Positions 45,345-56,995 of a DNA stretch of 64,000 nt are shown here, in pieces; within the stretch, counting starts at the first letter, position 1; each line of letters begins with the position of its first letter. Origin of the DNA: Sediminibacterium sp. (GTDB lineage Bacteria > Bacteroidota > Bacteroidia > Chitinophagales > Chitinophagaceae). Where the stretch lies: the NCBI RefSeq assembly GCF_030695065.1, contig NZ_JAUYTR010000009.1, positions 186,001 through 250,000 of the forward strand, written 5' to 3'. The notes under the pieces were generated by a model, which did no database searches, was not told the DNA's origin, and saw only the letters and a program-made list of their open reading frames with translations. The position numbers and the translations under genes were made by a program.

Positions 45345-46271
45345 ATGAATGGGTCCAAACGCTCATCCTTGTTTTTAAGTGGCTTTTTACTAAGCATTGG
45401 CGGAGCTATTTTATTTTCAACCAAAGCCATTTGGGTAAAATTGGCTTTTCGTAATACAGGTGTAGATGCATTAACGCTGCTAAGTTTACGAATGCTATTG
45501 GCACTCCCATTTTATTTAGTAGTCGCGTGGTTTTCAGGTAAAAAAGAATCTGCCATTCCACTTAGTAAAAAAGATTGGTTTTGGATTATTACTTTAGGGG
45601 TGTTGGGTTACTACATAAGTAGCTTATTCGATTTCATAGGCTTACAATATATTTCTGCTGGATTAGAACGCTTAATTTTATTTTTGTACCCCACATTTGC
45701 TGTATTGTTGAATACGTGGGTTTTTAAAAGCACTATTTCAAAAATTCAACTTTTTGCACTCGCAATTACTTATACAGGAATTGGCATTGCTTATTACGCA
45801 GAATTAGGTACAATTCAACACAATGAACATTTCTATTTTGGATCATTCATGGTTTTTTTATGTGCTGTAACTTATTCATTTTATTTGGTTGGAACAGGAA
45901 AAATGGTTGTGAAAGTGGGTGCTACTAGGTATACTGCTTATGCTATGCTTGCTGCAACTGCTGGAGTATTTATCCATTTCATAACACAAGCACAATGGGA
46001 AAAAGTAAATATGTCTAGCCAACTTTGGTGGTATAGTATTGCTTTGGCAATCATTGCAACGGTTATCCCTTCTTTTCTAATGAGCAGTGGCATGAAAAAG
46101 ATAGGCAGCAATAACGCTTCAATTATAACTAGTATAGGTCCGGTATCAACTATTATTCAAGCAGCCATTTTTTTAAATGAGCCCATTTTAATGGAACAAA
46201 TAGTAGGCACATTCTTGGTCATTATAGGCGTAGTACTAATTGGATGGCAAACAACCAGACCAATCAATTAA
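45345..46271 (+). CDS. EamA/DMT-family membrane transporter
   Basis: The 308-residue protein has about ten membrane segments in two EamA repeats. The first includes GAILFSTKAIWVKLAFRNTGVDALTLLSLRMLLALPFYL and GLQYISAGLERLILFLYPTFAVLL. The second includes FGSFMVFLCAVTYSFYLVGTGKM and GSNNASIITSIGPVSTIIQAAIFLNEPI. These proteins export or import small metabolites; the substrate is unknown. It is 2 bases after dapD, so it could be co-expressed. Its stop overlaps the convergent PAS/REC gene in TTAA. Confidence 0.88.
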   Translation: MNGSKRSSLFLSGFLLSIGGAILFSTKAIWVKLAFRNTGVDALTLLSLRMLLALPFYLVVAWFSGKKESAIPLSKKDWFWIITLGVLGYYISSLFDFIGLQYISAGLERLILFLYPTFAVLLNTWVFKSTISKIQLFALAITYTGIGIAYYAELGTIQHNEHFYFGSFMVFLCAVTYSFYLVGTGKMVVKVGATRYTAYAMLAATAGVFIHFITQAQWEKVNMSSQLWWYSIALAIIATVIPSFLMSSGMKKIGSNNASIITSIGPVSTIIQAAIFLNEPILMEQIVGTFLVIIGVVLIGWQTTRPIN

Positions 46272-48085
46272 TGTACCAATACATTTTCCATTTCACTTAA
46301 TCTTTCAAATTGCTCAATCGTTAGTGGCTTAGTAATGAAATGCGTAACGTTTAAAAATTTCTTTGATCGTTCGTAATCTACATGGTCTATTGAAGAAGTT
46401 AATACTACTACTGGCCATGGTTGTCCTAATTTTTCATACTCGTGCAAAAAATCCCATCCCGACCTTCCCGAAAAATTAAGATCCAAGAAAATTTTTCTCT
46501 TTGTGTTTGGATTCTCTTTTACATACTCCAATGCAGTATCTACATGATCAAATGTATGCACTGGCATACTAGGCATTACGTTTCTAATAATAAGCTCATT
46601 TAATTTATTTACTAAATGATCGTCGTCTACTAAACATATTTCCTCAATTGCTTGATTTAGCAAATATTTATTTAATGAAATACTATTTGATGAAGCAAAA
46701 TTAATTTGATCGTTTAGCTTGAAAATTGCATCGTTCATCAAATTAGCAGAGTGCTCAATATCAGTAAATATTTGGGAATAAGTGGCTACATTATGGTCCT
46801 GAAATTTAGCTGTTTGTAGTAATTGTAAAATTTTAGAAAACTCATGTCGCAATTCGTGAGAAGTTATAAAAGAGATTTTTTTAAGATGACTCATTTGTTC
46901 TAAAACTTCTTTTTCTGAAATTTTTTTGAGCGTGATGTCTTTTTGAATGGTAATATACCCTGTAACAGCTCCTTCTTTATCAAATAGTGTTTCAATCATT
47001 AAATCGAGCCATATTCTAGCACCTGATTTGGTGTAATACAATATCTCTGTTCTAATACCTTTTCCCAACTCTATCACTTTTCTAATTCTATCTAGCGTTT
47101 CTTTACTTGTTTCTGCCCCTTTTAGAAAGCTACCCGGCGTTTTACCGCAGACTTCTTTTAAAGTATATCCAGTTGTTTTTACAAATGCATCGTTTACCCA
47201 AGTTATTCTGTTATCGCTATTGCACATGATAATAATACTACCAATTTTTTGTGCAATCTTAGTGAACTTCCCAAATTCAATTTTAGTACTTTCCATCAAC
47301 TCTTGTTGCCTTCTAATTTGAATTTGAGCTTCTTTAACTGGCGTAATATCTAAAGCAGTTCCAGCATACCCTTTAAAAATTCCGGCATCGGTATAAATTG
47401 GATTCCCTTTCATATTCATCCACCTATAAGAGCCATCATGTTTTTTAAATCGAAAAGTGATTGAATAGGGTTGTTGAATTACAAATGCCTGCCTTCTCTC
47501 CTGTAATACCTGCTCTTTATCTTCAGGATGTACATGCTGCAACCAACCATTATCCATTTCTTCCTCTAACAAAACACCTCTAAAATTCAACCAAGCAGTA
47601 TTCGCAAAAATTAACTGATGGTGTTTATCTGTTACCCACATTAAATCGGCTATATGATTGGCTAACTCAGAAAAACATACGCTCGTAATATTAATCTCCG
47701 TATTGGTCAAATGATTTGATGTTTGTTTAATCAAATGATCTTTTAAAACTACTCCTATTACAACACCTTTACTATTACAAACGCCATTCATAAAACATTC
47801 GTACAAATCAAATTCACTACCTGGTTTCTTAAATTTCAACTTCTCGGTATGGAGTTTATTCTTTGCACATTTCAGTAATGCATTTTTGAATAAGCCAGCT
47901 TCTGCACTATTTAAAATTGAATCAATAGACAGCCCCTTCACCTTCGTCCCCTTTAATTGATATGATTTAACAAACAATTCATGGCAGAATGTAATATTAC
48001 CATCCAAATCTGTTGCTAATAAAAAATCATCTGAAAATGCGTTGGCACTTTTCAAATCTTTATCAATTATAAAGGGGAATTGCAT
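46268..48085 (-). CDS. PAS/H-box-like/REC hybrid without kinase ATPase domain (paralogue A, 605 aa)
   Basis: The soluble 605-residue protein has three PAS-like domains (about 15-115, 140-250, 270-390; WLNFRGVLLEEEMDNGWLQHVHPED and ITWVNDAFVKTTGYTLKEV are typical). A helical segment KKISFITSHELRHEFSKILQLLQTAKF follows, with His410 in the place of a kinase H-box. The C-terminal receiver has IEEICLVDDDH, phosphoacceptor Asp535 in KIFLDLNFSGRSGWDF, Thr563 and Lys586 (FITKPLT). No N, G1 or G2 boxes of a HATPase_c domain occur between the H-box and REC, where only about 65 residues lie. It cannot be a self-sufficient histidine kinase. It overlaps the REC-only gene by 19 bases. Confidence 0.9.
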   Translation of the reverse strand: MQFPFIIDKDLKSANAFSDDFLLATDLDGNITFCHELFVKSYQLKGTKVKGLSIDSILNSAEAGLFKNALLKCAKNKLHTEKLKFKKPGSEFDLYECFMNGVCNSKGVVIGVVLKDHLIKQTSNHLTNTEINITSVCFSELANHIADLMWVTDKHHQLIFANTAWLNFRGVLLEEEMDNGWLQHVHPEDKEQVLQERRQAFVIQQPYSITFRFKKHDGSYRWMNMKGNPIYTDAGIFKGYAGTALDITPVKEAQIQIRRQQELMESTKIEFGKFTKIAQKIGSIIIMCNSDNRITWVNDAFVKTTGYTLKEVCGKTPGSFLKGAETSKETLDRIRKVIELGKGIRTEILYYTKSGARIWLDLMIETLFDKEGAVTGYITIQKDITLKKISEKEVLEQMSHLKKISFITSHELRHEFSKILQLLQTAKFQDHNVATYSQIFTDIEHSANLMNDAIFKLNDQINFASSNSISLNKYLLNQAIEEICLVDDDHLVNKLNELIIRNVMPSMPVHTFDHVDTALEYVKENPNTKRKIFLDLNFSGRSGWDFLHEYEKLGQPWPVVVLTSSIDHVDYERSKKFLNVTHFITKPLTIEQFERLSEMENVLVH

Positions 48086-48489
48086 AAACTAGAGTTTGGG
48101 GGGTTAAACTTAAAAAAATAGGAATCAAGAATTTCTGGTAATACCAAAAAATCTCTTGATTTATCTAAAAAAAAATTTGCCCCTTTGCTTAAACATGCGT
48201 GTTTATAAATTGCATGGGGCATATTGGTCAAAATAATTATCAAAGGACTTGCTAACGGATAGTCCTGTTTAATTTTATTCAATAAATCTATTCCACTAAT
48301 ACCTGGTAACTTAATATCTAAAATAAACACATCAGGAAAAGACTTATCAACTAGTTCCAACCCAAGTTCTGCTGAATTCGCTGATCTAATATTATACGAT
48401 GAATTTTTATCAGATAAGAGAATCCGAAGTTGATGAACTATAATATCTGCATCTTCTATAATTAATATGTTTAAACTTGCTGAAGTCAT
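48067..48489 (-). CDS. REC-only response regulator (140 aa)
   Basis: The protein is a single receiver domain: LNILIIEDADIIVHQLRILL (acidic pair), FPDVFILDIKLPGISGIDLL (phosphoacceptor Asp58), LIIILTNMPH (Thr) and ANFFLDKSRDF (Lys). It has no output domain, like CheY- or Spo0F-type relays. The coding region overlaps the start of paralogue A by 19 bases, so the two are made together and may act in one phosphorelay. A -7 element lies 16 bases upstream, just after the terminator of the NarL-type gene. Confidence 0.9.
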   Translation of the reverse strand: MTSASLNILIIEDADIIVHQLRILLSDKNSSYNIRSANSAELGLELVDKSFPDVFILDIKLPGISGIDLLNKIKQDYPLASPLIIILTNMPHAIYKHACLSKGANFFLDKSRDFLVLPEILDSYFFKFNPPNSSLCNSPL

Positions 48490-48505
48490 ATCATGTATAC
48501 TTATC

Positions 48506-48513
48506 CAAATTTA
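48506..48513 (-). promoter_or_regulatory. -7 element for the REC/paralogue-A operon
   Basis: On the minus strand TAAATTTG matches TAnnTTTG exactly, 16 bases before the ATG at 48489. The upstream inverted repeat at 48559-48576 is centred near -65 from the predicted start of transcription, a normal activator position. Confidence 0.5.
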
Positions 48514-48519
48514 ATCATC

Positions 48520-48558
48520 AAAAAAAGAAAGCTTTGTAGGGCAAGCCTACAAAGCTTT
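48520..48558 (-). terminator. Intrinsic terminator of the NarL-type regulator gene
   Basis: AAAGCTTTGTAGG and CCTACAAAGCTTT form a perfect 13-bp stem (48528-48558) with a 5-base loop. On the minus strand the stem is followed by CTTTTTTT. It lies 158 bases after the response-regulator stop and separates it from the downstream REC gene. A TTTT tract on the plus side is weak. Confidence 0.75.
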
Positions 48559-48576
48559 TGTAGTGCGGACACTACA
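48559..48576. promoter_or_regulatory. Inverted repeat TGTAGTG-N4-CACTACA, copy 1
   Basis: TGTAGTGCGGACACTACA is a perfect 7-bp inverted repeat with a 4-base spacer. The same half-sites and spacer length recur at 48703-48720, and both copies are followed by ATT. It lies about 65 bases upstream of the predicted start of the REC operon. The layout suggests a dimer-binding operator. Confidence 0.5.
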
Positions 48577-48702
48577 ATTGGTTTTTCAGGAATTTGAATT
48601 TTAAAATCAACACAGAAGTGTTTCAAATAACAAAACTAATTCAACTGAATAACTTCACTTGTAGTTGCATTTAACAAAAAAAGGGGTGATTACACGACAG
48701 TC

Positions 48703-48720
48703 TGTAGTGATATCACTACA
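48703..48720. promoter_or_regulatory. Inverted repeat TGTAGTG-N4-CACTACA, copy 2
   Basis: TGTAGTGATATCACTACA is a perfect 18-bp palindrome with the same half-sites and spacer length as copy 1. It overlaps the stop codon of the NarL-type regulator gene. The centres of the two copies are 144 bp apart. Confidence 0.5.
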
Positions 48721-49348
48721 ATTCAGAAATCTTATGTTCAATGGCGTATCGAATTAGATCGGCATTGCTCTTTAATCCCATTTTATCTAAAATTCGAGCG
48801 CGGTAAGTACTGATAGTATTAATGTTCAACGATAGCATTTCACTTATTTCTGATACGGATTTTCCTTCAACCAACTTTTTTAACACTTCAAACTCCCTAT
48901 CCGACAAGTTTTCATGGGGTAATTTTGTGGTATCTGTTTCTAAAGAACTGGCTAGCACTTCGGCTACCCTATTAGTAATATACTTTCTTCCGCTTAGGAT
49001 TTGCTGAACAGCGGTAACTAACTCATAAGGAGCGCTCTCTTTGGTTAAATAACCAGAAGCTCCCGCTTTTATAGCCCTAACTGCGTATTGTTCTGGCGAA
49101 TGCATACTCAACATTAAAACAGGAGTATTTGGTACATGCGTCTTAATTTGTTTAAGAATTTCAATACCAGAAAATCCAGGCATACTAATATCTGAAATAA
49201 TAATATCCCATTTTTCCTTGATTGATTTTTTAAATAATTCCGCAGAATCAGACACATCATGTACTTCGGCTTCAGGAAGTGACTCAAGCAGAATCTTCTT
49301 TAATCCTTCTCTAATTAAACCATGATCATCAGCAATGAGTATTCGCAT
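48716..49348 (-). CDS. NarL/FixJ-type response regulator
   Basis: The 210-residue protein has a receiver domain (MRILIADDHGLIREGLKKIL; phosphoacceptor Asp53 in IIISDISMPGFSG; Lys in GYLTKESAPYEL). A LuxR-type helix-turn-helix lies at residues about 145-205 (LSDREFEVLKKLVEGKSVSEISEMLSLNINTISTYRARILDKMGLKSNADLIRYA). It is a typical DNA-binding two-component output. It lies 66 bases after paralogue B on the same strand and is followed by a strong terminator. It is a candidate to bind the TGTAGTG inverted repeats nearby. Confidence 0.95.
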   Translation of the reverse strand: MRILIADDHGLIREGLKKILLESLPEAEVHDVSDSAELFKKSIKEKWDIIISDISMPGFSGIEILKQIKTHVPNTPVLMLSMHSPEQYAVRAIKAGASGYLTKESAPYELVTAVQQILSGRKYITNRVAEVLASSLETDTTKLPHENLSDREFEVLKKLVEGKSVSEISEMLSLNINTISTYRARILDKMGLKSNADLIRYAIEHKISEL

Positions 49349-49414: not shown

Positions 49415-50503
49415 CTATAACTGATTATCAAGCTTTGCCGATTCCAAATCCGCAAAAAAGGACTTGACAAAATCAAAGGAAAGCGGTTTAGTAACATAAT
49501 CTATTACTGAAGTATAGCTTCTTGCTTTCTCTCTATCCCGATTATCTATGGAAGAGGAAAGTACAATTACATTAGATGCCTCAGAAATGGTTGCATAATC
49601 ATCTAAAAACTCCCAGCCACCCCTTCCAGGGAAATTAATGTCTAAAAAAATGAGGGTTTGATGCATTTTACCCATATTTCTGATATCAGCTAAAGCATCA
49701 TCTATGTCTATGTAAACCTCTACAGGCATTTCGGGCATTAAAGCTTGAACAATTTTCCTATTCAACACATTCGTTAGCACATCGTCGTCTATCATTAATA
49801 TTTTGCTGAATTTTTCTGCTTCTTTATTCATGTTAAAAAATTCATCTTGTTGATTAAAAGAAAGTTTATGATTTAATTTAAAAATGGAAGAATTGATTAA
49901 TTGAATAGACTTTTTGGCTTCCCCTATCAATTCAACTCTTTCAGTATCCGAAATAAACTTATTGTCCATCAAATTAACAATTGACTGTATTTTGGCATAT
50001 TCATGGCGCATTTCATGAGAGGTAATAAACGAAAGTTCTTGCAAACGATTTTTGAATAACTGACTTTGTTGCTCAATTTTCTTTCTCTCAGAAATATTTT
50101 GAGCAATTCCAATTAAATGAACAACTTCATTACCCAACTTCTCAAATACCGATAACCTGGCATTAAAATACTGGTATTGTTGAAACTTATCTAAACACCT
50201 ACATTCTATTTCTACATTTTGCTTTTCTAGACTCTCCAACTGTTGCATAGCATTTTGTAAGGGTTTCCAATCTTCGGAATGAATGAGTGACCTAAGTGAA
50301 ATACAATTGATTTCTTGATCTTTTAGGTGCTCAAAACCCAACATATCATCTAAAGCGGGGTTTCTCAAAACAAATCTCCTTTCTTTAACATTGAAAATAA
50401 AAATCATGTCTGGCAGCTTATTGTAAATGGCTTCCAATAAAGCAGACAAACTAACAAAAGAAGGTAAAACAGTAAATGTTGATACTTGAGCTTCCATCAC
50501 CAA
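49415..50503 (-). CDS. PAS/H-box-like/REC hybrid without kinase ATPase domain (paralogue B, 362 aa)
   Basis: This shorter relative of paralogue A has one PAS domain (about residues 20-140; IYNKLPDMIFIFNVKERRFVLRNPALDDMLGF). The segment LQELSFITSHEMRHEYAKIQSIVNLMD has His163 in the H-box position and His167 after it. A C-terminal receiver follows (ILMIDDDVLTNVLNRKI; Asp288 in LIFLDINFPGRGGWEFL; VIDYVTKPLSFDF). No HATPase_c motifs are present. MEAQVSTF two codons later is an alternative start. A sigma-54-like -24/-12 element and TTTTGGGA repeats lie upstream in the gap shared with the sigma-54 activator gene. Confidence 0.9.
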   Translation of the reverse strand: MVMEAQVSTFTVLPSFVSLSALLEAIYNKLPDMIFIFNVKERRFVLRNPALDDMLGFEHLKDQEINCISLRSLIHSEDWKPLQNAMQQLESLEKQNVEIECRCLDKFQQYQYFNARLSVFEKLGNEVVHLIGIAQNISERKKIEQQSQLFKNRLQELSFITSHEMRHEYAKIQSIVNLMDNKFISDTERVELIGEAKKSIQLINSSIFKLNHKLSFNQQDEFFNMNKEAEKFSKILMIDDDVLTNVLNRKIVQALMPEMPVEVYIDIDDALADIRNMGKMHQTLIFLDINFPGRGGWEFLDDYATISEASNVIVLSSSIDNRDREKARSYTSVIDYVTKPLSFDFVKSFFADLESAKLDNQL

Positions 50504-54570: not shown

Positions 54571-55173
54571 ATGAATGTAAATGTGTATATAAAAGAACAG
54601 CTATCGGAAATATCGCATAAATTATTAAGCGATCATTGTAATCATGAAATCATTCAAACAAAGGATCATACTTTATTTCCTTTCTTATATGGCAAATATG
54701 CATTGATGATTACTGAACCGGATCCGGAAAATGACATTCATATTGTATTTGATGGTTTTGAAAAGTTTAATCAATATCCAATTATTGCAGTGGGAAATTG
54801 GAAAGCAAACGCATATGGCCAAGCACTTTTTGAACGTTATCAAAAAAGCTATTTAATTAAACTGATAGATCCGCAAATTCAATTAAGAACATTGAATATG
54901 CTCAGAACAAATTGCTTTATATATATAGATTCTCATCACCAAGAAGACAATTCTGCATCACTAATAGAAGCTATGTATATGCAACTGCCCATTGTTGCCT
55001 ATGCTTCAGATTACAATAAAGCAATCACCCAAGATAACGCCATGCTTTTTAAACATTCAACTGAACTTATTGAAATACTTCACTCACTTCACCCTACCAA
55101 AGCGGCCAATAATGGCGTTTTAATGAAACAATCTATTAGTTCCCAACTGGAGAAGCTTCGTCTAATGCGCTAA
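54571..55173 (+). CDS. Glycosyltransferase-4 C-terminal-half-like protein (partial fold)
   Basis: The ATG at 54571 is preferred over the in-frame GTG at 54568. The 200-residue product matches only the C-terminal (donor-binding) half of GT4 enzymes of the DUF1972/rhamnosyltransferase-like group. AVGNWKANAYGQALFERYQ, IKLIDPQIQLRTLNMLRTNCFIYIDSHHQEDNSASLIEAMYMQLPIVAYASDYNKAI and the closing helix are visible; the usual HSxGGTNPSLVEAM core is degenerate. The N-terminal acceptor half is missing, so it may be non-catalytic or act with a partner. It has a sigma-54-like promoter and overlaps the convergent paralogue C gene by 38 bases. Confidence 0.7.
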   Translation: MNVNVYIKEQLSEISHKLLSDHCNHEIIQTKDHTLFPFLYGKYALMITEPDPENDIHIVFDGFEKFNQYPIIAVGNWKANAYGQALFERYQKSYLIKLIDPQIQLRTLNMLRTNCFIYIDSHHQEDNSASLIEAMYMQLPIVAYASDYNKAITQDNAMLFKHSTELIEILHSLHPTKAANNGVLMKQSISSQLEKLRLMR

Positions 55174-56995
55174 GTTCTTCAAATTGAGGTACTGTTAGGG
55201 GCTTAGTAATAAAATGGGTTACATTAGAATATTTTTTAGACTTCTCGTAATCATTGTGATCAATGGAAGAAGTCAATATGATAACTGGCCATGGTTGGTT
55301 CATCTTTTCATATTCTTCTAAAAAGTCCCATCCGTTTCTTCCCATGAAATTTAAGTCTAAAAATATTTTCCTTTTCAAAGTTGGATTTCCTTTTAAATAG
55401 GCAATGGCATCATCTATATTATCAAACACAGTTACAGTCATATTTGGAATTACATTCCTAATAATAACTGAATTTAGTTTATTAATCATATGGTCATCAT
55501 CTACCAATATTATTTCTTCTATTGCCTGATTTAATAAGAATTTATTTAATGCTATATTACTATTAGATGCAAAACTAACTTCATCGGAAATTTTCAGAAT
55601 TGCCTGATTCATTGTGTTTGCTGAGGATTCTATATCCAATAAAATCTGTTGAAACCCCTGCAGCGTGTTTTGTTGAAACTTGGCAGTTTGCAAAATTTGT
55701 AAGATTTTAGAAAATTCATGCCTTAACTCAAAAGATGCAATGTCTGAAATTTGCTTAAGGTGAGCCATTTGCTCTTCAACATCTTTTTCAGTCATTTTCT
55801 TTTTAGTAATATCATTTTGGATAGTCAAATAGCCAATAATATTTCCTTGCTTATCAAACAAAGTTTCCATTTTTAAATCCAACCAAATCTTGTTCCCGTT
55901 TTTAGCATAGAACACAATTTCAGTTCTTAAGCTTTTCCCCTGCTCAATCGCTTTTTTTAATTTATCCAATGAATCAGCAGCGGTGTCAGAACCCGACAAA
56001 ATAGCAATTGGCTCTTTACCATTAACCTCTCGTAAGGGGAAGCCTGTTAATTTCACAAAGCTGTCATTTACCCAAGTAATCCTATATCCAGGATCACATA
56101 AAATAATTACCACATTAATCCTTTGAGCAATTTTAGTGAACTTTGCAAATTCAACTTTAGATACATCCAACATCTCTTTTTGCCTATTCAATTGCAATTG
56201 TAACTCTTTCATATTGGTTACATCTTGCAGCGTACCAGCATAACCAACAAAATCTCCTAAATGAGAATACATAGGACTGCCTTGCATTTCTACCCATCTA
56301 TACGTTGCATCAAATTTTCTATACCTAAACTGGATTGTATAATCTGATTTTGTATGATATGCTGTATTTTGCTCCTCTGTTACTTTGTATTTATCCTCCG
56401 AATAAATACCATCCATCCACCCTTTGCCAGATTCATTTTCTAAAGAAACTCCTCTAAACTTTAGCCAGGCTTTGTTAACAAAATTGATTTGATGTTGGTG
56501 ATCGCTCATCCACATCATCTCCTTCATATAGTCTGCTATTTCACGAAACCATTCTCTATTTTGACCTGAGATTCCAGTTCCACCTGCACTTATTGCCGAG
56601 GAAGTATTAAACTGAACAGTAGAAGCAGCAGCAGATTTACCAACTAGTAAAAAAGCAACAGGGTAAGACCTACGATCATTTACTACAGTAAATTCATACT
56701 GTATGCAAGATTCTGTAGTATTTACTCCAGGGTGTTTTAATTTTAAATTTATTGAACCAGTAGACTTTGTTAGCAAAGCCTGATGTATAGCATCTTTAAT
56801 TAGCCCGGCATCAACTGAGTTAATTAATGAGTCAATATTCACTCCAACTACTGATTCACCAACTATTTGATAAATCCTTTGAAAAGCGTCATTACAAAAT
56901 GTAATATTTGCCTCTAGATCTGTTGTGAAAACAAAATGGTCGTTAGAAGAAATTTGGTCTAACAATCTTCTTTCAACACTATAAGGATAACGCAT
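55136..56995 (-). CDS. PAS/H-box-like/REC hybrid without kinase ATPase domain, H-box His replaced by Phe (paralogue C, 619 aa)
   Basis: The protein is closely related to paralogue A over its full length: three PAS-like domains (about 15-120, 145-260, 280-400), then LKQISDIASFELRHEFSKILQILQTAKF, then a receiver (IEEIILVDDDHMINKL; Asp547 in KIFLDLNFMGRNGWDFL; ILTSSID; Lys598 in FITKPLT). The H-box position is Phe422 (SFELRHE), where A and B have His (SHELRHE, SHEMRHE). The RHE motif after it is kept in all three. No HATPase_c motifs are present. It converges with the 54571 gene. Confidence 0.9.
   Translation of the reverse strand: MRYPYSVERRLLDQISSNDHFVFTTDLEANITFCNDAFQRIYQIVGESVVGVNIDSLINSVDAGLIKDAIHQALLTKSTGSINLKLKHPGVNTTESCIQYEFTVVNDRRSYPVAFLLVGKSAAASTVQFNTSSAISAGGTGISGQNREWFREIADYMKEMMWMSDHQHQINFVNKAWLKFRGVSLENESGKGWMDGIYSEDKYKVTEEQNTAYHTKSDYTIQFRYRKFDATYRWVEMQGSPMYSHLGDFVGYAGTLQDVTNMKELQLQLNRQKEMLDVSKVEFAKFTKIAQRINVVIILCDPGYRITWVNDSFVKLTGFPLREVNGKEPIAILSGSDTAADSLDKLKKAIEQGKSLRTEIVFYAKNGNKIWLDLKMETLFDKQGNIIGYLTIQNDITKKKMTEKDVEEQMAHLKQISDIASFELRHEFSKILQILQTAKFQQNTLQGFQQILLDIESSANTMNQAILKISDEVSFASNSNIALNKFLLNQAIEEIILVDDDHMINKLNSVIIRNVIPNMTVTVFDNIDDAIAYLKGNPTLKRKIFLDLNFMGRNGWDFLEEYEKMNQPWPVIILTSSIDHNDYEKSKKYSNVTHFITKPLTVPQFEELSALDEASPVGN

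Follow-up and report, generated by a model that had tools for sequence, protein, structure and literature searches.

Two exact inverted repeats lie between the genes of a NarL/GerE-type response regulator and a stand-alone receiver protein in a 64,000-nucleotide stretch of a Sediminibacterium genome (the window). The best explanation, with a probability of about 0.7, is that the dyad is the operator of this regulator and drives a small RNA from a promoter P1, and that dyad 2 would serve both as the second hairpin (hairpin 2) of this RNA and, within the home clade, as the operator of a second promoter, P2. The evidence is comparative throughout and comprises conservation, a spacer rule, joint occurrence of dyad and regulator, the geometry of the promoters and paired hairpins. 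New in this analysis are the small RNA predicted from the promoter that dyad 1 faces, the assignment of dyad 2 as its putative hairpin 2 and the apparent fit of dyad 2 to the promoter of the receiver (REC) gene. The features are listed in Table 1.

Table 1. Observed and predicted elements around the two dyads (window positions)
Feature	Position	Strand	Basis or remark
NarL/GacA-type response regulator, proposed dyad binder	48716..49348	-	Response_reg + GerE
Dyad 1 (predicted operator O1), TGTAGTGATATCACTACA	48703..48720	-	centre about -85.5 of P1; 36/53 gaps, regulator co-occurrence
Promoter-proximal half-site ACTAC	48661..48665	-	about -35 to -39 of P1; +43/44 peak in relatives, CTAY-N26-TTTG rule
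P1 -7 box, TAGTTTTG (TAnnTTTG)	48631..48638	-	predicted start near 48626
Predicted small RNA, about 107 nt, three hairpins	48520..48626	-	fold z, covariation, standalone and unlinked copies
Hairpin 1, AACAC-UUCU-GUGUU	48609..48622	-	4 nt from predicted 5' end; other paired letters in relatives
Conserved unpaired box, TTCCTGAAAAACC	48580..48592	-	alignment A2
Dyad 2, predicted RNA hairpin 2 and candidate operator O2	48559..48576	-	centre about -66.5 of P2; compensatory changes; home-clade letters
Intrinsic terminator, 13-bp stem, then CTTTTTTT	48528..48558	-	3' arm with CCTAC; covariation
P2 -7 box, TAAATTTG	48506..48513	-	predicted start near 48501; CTAC-N26-TTTG layout conserved in L058-L065
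Stand-alone receiver (REC) gene, predicted target	48067..48489	-	overlapped by PAS-PAS-REC gene
PAS-PAS-REC gene	46268..48085	-	overlaps and follows REC

Conservation of the dyad and its link to the regulator gene

An earlier note on this DNA had described two copies of TGTAGTG-N4-CACTACA, one of them overlapping the regulator stop codon. Both copies, dyad 1 and dyad 2 (TGTAGTGCGGACACTACA), were confirmed as exact inverted repeats with a start-to-start distance of 144 bp, and dyad 1 does overlap the stop codon of the regulator gene (narL). They were the only perfect ones among six matches with at most three mismatches in the window, where 1.84 were expected. The 7-4-7 motif is exact in the window but was rejected as the conserved unit; the G..C flanking the spacer varies among relatives, and the core kept in orthologous gaps is GTAGT-N6-ACTAC, commonly TGTAGT-N6-ACTACA.

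Conservation was evaluated in 53 loci of Chitinophagaceae type in which the regulator has an orthologue (identity of at least 62%), and a perfect GTAGT-N6-ACTAC was counted when it lay at most 300 bp from the regulator stop codon. The dyad, whose absence from orthologous gaps the earlier note had linked to chance or an RNA-structure role, was present in 36 of the 53. Any other spacer from 0 to 20 occurred in at most two loci each, and when all 1024 five-base half-sites were compared, the next best dyad was found in three. The gap accounts for 5% of the sequence and contained 44 of the 57 dyad hits in these loci, which are related sequences and hence not independent trials. A rigid spacer with free letters had previously been taken as a sign of protein binding, and the spacer and half-site counts bear this out; it is a requirement of a protein dimer on DNA and not of an RNA loop, and therefore supports the operator reading. 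An operator function of dyad 1 is very likely.

The regulator has a receiver domain and a GerE (LuxR-type) DNA-binding domain. Its closest curated profiles were MctR and then UvrY/SirA/GacA, and for this second-best family it scored 153.8 bits, which does not reach the NCBIfam cut-off (NF007018, 280 bits). Among 61 Sediminibacterium genomes, in which the regulator was called at E <= 1e-40, the dyad was present in 20 of 22 genomes with the regulator and in 3 of 39 without it (Fisher, 6e-11, an optimistic value with lineage and genome size as confounders, the regulator-free genomes being small and perhaps of one or few lineages). The reversed control pattern occurred in 4 of 22 and 8 of 39 genomes, respectively, and displayed no link (Fisher, 1). 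Two genomes, G003 and G060, carried the regulator without the dyad. Gap conservation, co-occurrence and the non-coding location together make the NarL-type regulator the best candidate for the binder, as had been proposed, and the dyad with its fixed spacer, linked to the regulator gene, appears operator-like.

Promoter layout and sites away from the locus

A CTAY half-site recurred 22 to 24 or 43 to 44 bp downstream of the dyad, corresponding to about two or four helix turns. CTAY-N26-TTTG was found in 24 of the 53 stretches and the N25 form in 6 (30 of 53 together), and any other spacing occurred in at most 4. The Bacteroidota -7 box, TAnnTTTG, spans -12 to -5 (PMC9723704). Dyad, CTAY half-site, N26 and TTTG formed one shared promoter layout. 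The ACTAC half-site of P1, at a distance of 43 bp from these letters in dyad 1, is part of the same element. At P2, the half-site CCTAC (48536-48540, at -35 to -39) lies inside the 3' arm of the terminator, and the predicted start is 12 nt ahead of the REC start codon. The position of dyad 2 relative to this start agrees with the value of -65 given earlier. P1 and P2 share the -7 box with Bacteroidota housekeeping promoters; however, the expected place of the -33 box is occupied by a CTAY half-site that lies 30 bp before TTTG. This placement, together with the dyad-promoter geometry, suggests activator dependence, so that the regulator would activate rather than repress.

The earlier note had proposed a search of intergenic regions and regarded wide occurrence inside coding regions as a mark of chance. 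One further perfect copy of the palindrome was found elsewhere in the 3.3 Mb genome, sites away from narL were nearly all intergenic (three inside genes), and the dyad was almost absent from coding regions. The off-locus dyads were mostly located 78-122 bp upstream of a start codon. A hybrid kinase gene with an upstream dyad was kept in four species (G000, G011, G017, and G053); its product has GAF, HisKA, HATPase and two REC domains, and its best curated match was BarA at a score far below the BarA cut-off. A gene for a secreted protein also had an upstream dyad; the protein has Por_Secre_tail in G000, and in G017 and G053 the dyad lies equally far from genes for similar proteins. Other neighbours included receiver proteins, NarL-type paralogues, a sigma-54 type regulator and an integrase-like gene. 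The dyad in front of BarA-like hybrid kinase, receiver and secreted-protein genes therefore marks a candidate regulon. Outside G000, a relaxed genome scan with two mismatches did not exceed the reversed control, and was therefore left out of the regulon calls.

Several smaller groups of sites were also observed. In two genomes, the dyad lies 114-115 bp ahead of a conserved gene that begins MNRIA[ED]SELIINNRGAVYHLDLRPE (L201 in G066 and L206 in G063). In two close species, it lies 89-91 bp upstream of the integrase-like gene, MN[KN]GQRRTATGKKINKK (G000:C15:186030, L005; and L196 in G011), of which the tested fragment had no Pfam match. In three genomes, it is located at or just past a transaldolase stop codon (L009 at G000:C19:85368, L194 in G053, and L219 in G076), and the gene downstream of the G000 copy encodes a protein that is probably secreted.

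Predicted small RNA and the two roles proposed for dyad 2

On the minus strand from P1, the order of elements is hairpin 1, an unpaired conserved stretch with TTTTAAAATTCA and the conserved box, hairpin 2 (dyad 2) and the terminator. The fold of the 107 nt had a z of -5.7. In 25 aligned 3' ends, 98% of the cells of the terminator helix were paired and 9 of its 12 pairs were double-changed; the whole structure had 65 double-changed cells, compared to 25.6 in shuffled and 10-26 in slid alignments. In hairpin 2, L073 has the arms TTGCAGC..GCTGTAA and L076-L078 have TTACAGC..GCTGTA in place of the TTGTAGT..ACTACAA arms found here, and L080-L088 do not retain the hairpin. The arms of hairpin 1, near the predicted 5' end, are AACAC/GUGUU here, AAGCU/AGCUU in L063, GGAUG/CAUCC in L064 and L065, and CGGUA/UACUG-like in L114. 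RNAalifold on alignment A3 did not return hairpin 1, a consequence of its unaligned columns. Folded singly, most relatives tried displayed it, with the exception of L113, where pairing is possible by eye and the best fold differs.

Five unlinked RNA copies (L258-L262), which may be mutually related, each had an upstream dyad with 1-2 mismatches of 10, located 177-205 bp before the conserved box, and the next best dyad position had 3-4 mismatches. Hits of at least 48 bits to the RNA model, itself built from genomes with the regulator, occurred only in such genomes, and some regulator genomes had no clear RNA (e.g., G021 and G043). Hits below about 45 bits were not counted, since many were ordinary terminators matched on both strands; nor were those in G044 and G009, which lie behind a receptor-like gene without a dyad. 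In the Rfam search, no family reached its gathering score, CsrB/CsrC/RsmX/Y/Z included. The unit has a predicted promoter of its own, a structured noncoding stretch and an intrinsic terminator, and it is kept without a coding neighbour. We infer that positions 48520-48626 are transcribed as a previously undescribed small RNA.

AUCC was enriched in the set of RNAs, with 59 occurrences compared to 17.5 in shuffles (sd 4.0), the sequences being related and the home clade having only 0-2. Up to five AUCC(U) repeats were observed in the predicted small RNAs of many relatives (L258-L262 and the gaps of L072-L091). Furthermore, two RNA-like 3' ends with box, hairpin 2 and terminator lie in tandem in the narL-REC gap of L082/L265 (G049:C284), and hairpin 2 of the second one forms a near-dyad at the REC promoter.

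In all eight loci of the home clade (L058-L065), dyad 2 has exact letters, the N6 spacer and the P2 box behind it. In L069/L070, the sole dyad sits at the dyad 2 position relative to the terminator and REC. The operator placement was seen only in these loci, and more distant species keep the place only as an RNA hairpin; the hairpin role is therefore more probable than the operator role. Dyad 2 is probably an RNA hairpin, with good confidence, and for its function as an operator the evidence leans in favour. The RNA-structure role, which the earlier note had set against protein binding, thus appears to apply to dyad 2, and the operator role holds for dyad 1. Among the neighbouring genes, three paralogous PAS...REC proteins (46268-48085, 49415-50503, and 55136-56995, minus strand) have an H-box-like stretch (HExRHEFxK / HEMRHEYAK), and Pfam found no HATPase domain in them.

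Proposed mechanism, alternatives and known systems

In the proposed mechanism, a dimer of the activated regulator would occupy dyad 1 together with the half-site near -37 and bring RNA polymerase to P1, whose -7 box is of the TAnnTTTG type. Transcription from P1 would yield the small RNA of about 107 nt ending at the terminator, with dyad 2 folded as hairpin 2. In the home clade, dyad 2 would also be the operator of P2 and drive the REC/PAS operon. A DNA loop between the dyads, previously considered possible, would be unnecessary; it was rejected, since numerous relatives carry only the narL-proximal site and the home-clade sites lie at two different promoter-like elements.

Alternatively, the unit could be a cis-acting attenuator leader of the REC operon, in which read-through from P1 is switched by hairpin 2, the terminator and a competing pairing between the two (CTACAAA-AGC-TTTGTAG). 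Hairpin 2 lies directly against the terminator, and the sequence contains the letters for this mutually exclusive pairing; in L072-L078, REC directly follows the RNA behind a weak terminator, no second promoter is evident, and the unit there may therefore be a leader. However, L113/L114 keep the unit without a same-direction gene behind it, no co-directional operon lies behind the unlinked copies in L258 and L261, and in the home clade P2 is present as a second predicted promoter, which makes attenuation unlikely as the general explanation.

A little less probable still is a different transcription factor that binds the dyad and merely co-occurs with the NarL-type gene. Co-occurrence in one genus does not single out one regulator among many, and the genome encodes 37 related regulators. 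However, the site stays beside the NarL-type gene across species while the other neighbours change, and its size and symmetry fit a NarL-family dimer, with the GacA box following the same plan. The NarL-type regulator is thus the preferred binder.

A mere terminator or processing hairpin of the narL transcript would explain why, in many species, dyad 1 comes directly after narL, and the dyad can fold as a short hairpin. Depending on the species, however, dyad 1 overlaps the stop codon or lies 7-30 bp behind it, and in L103-L110 it lies downstream of a separate strong terminator, so that neither the coding frame nor termination explains it. In addition, an RNA loop would tolerate lengths other than six bases, and the off-locus copies sit in promoters. 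This reading is very improbable and was rejected, since separate terminators are present and dyad 1 is not followed by a conserved run of U. Chance is the least credible of all: short A/T-rich palindromes arise randomly, and some single-genome sites and the three in-gene sites may be of this kind, but two exact copies share one gap, and conservation of the dyad across dozens of species refutes chance for these two sites.

The closest known likeness is the BarA/UvrY (GacS/GacA) system, in which the GacA box TGTAAG-N6-CTTACA lies upstream of small-RNA genes (PMC3171408). The regulator here is near UvrY/SirA/GacA, the hybrid kinase is nearest to BarA among curated profiles, and the dyad is likewise 18 bp long with TGTA..TACA ends and an N6 spacer, ahead of a predicted small-RNA gene. 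Sibling copies of the predicted RNA in several genomes are a further feature in common with this system. In contrast, the inner letters are AGT/ACT instead of AAG/CTT, and TGTAAG-N6-CTTACA does not occur at these sites; regulator and kinase score far below the curated cut-offs; the predicted RNA is unrelated in Rfam and enriched in AUCC instead of GGA; and the dyad fronts protein-coding genes too. CsrA/RsmA was found in none of ten genomes, whereas the control search detected CsrA in E. coli, B. subtilis and T. maritima. The sub-cut-off scores, the differing inner letters and the lack of CsrA in these ten genomes are the reasons that the system was not assigned to the BarA/UvrY-GacS/GacA family. 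Operators of NarL/FixJ-type regulators (NarL, DevR, VraR, and EvgA) are likewise inverted half-sites of about 16-18 bp overall for a REC-GerE protein, and solved relatives of the regulator were identified by sequence. In the open-access literature, to which the search was confined, no published site with the dyad sequence was found.

Tentatively, the system could be a CsrA-free counterpart of Gac/Rsm in Chitinophagaceae, in which a GacA-like regulator drives sibling small RNAs with AUCC repeats in many species. These RNAs might act by base pairing with mRNAs or by sequestering an RNA-binding protein, and one of the operators would double as an RNA hairpin. If true, a GacA-like layout without CsrA raises the question of the target of the RNA. 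Few regulator-sRNA circuits have been worked out in the phylum Bacteroidota, and for one response regulator the analysis supplies an operator that can be tested, a promoter layout and a candidate family of small RNAs. Outside Chitinophagaceae, a one-mismatch dyad (TTGTAGAATAATTACTACAA) was observed in Daejeonella oryzae (L134), 16 bp past the gene of a regulator with 53% identity, which suggests an older origin.
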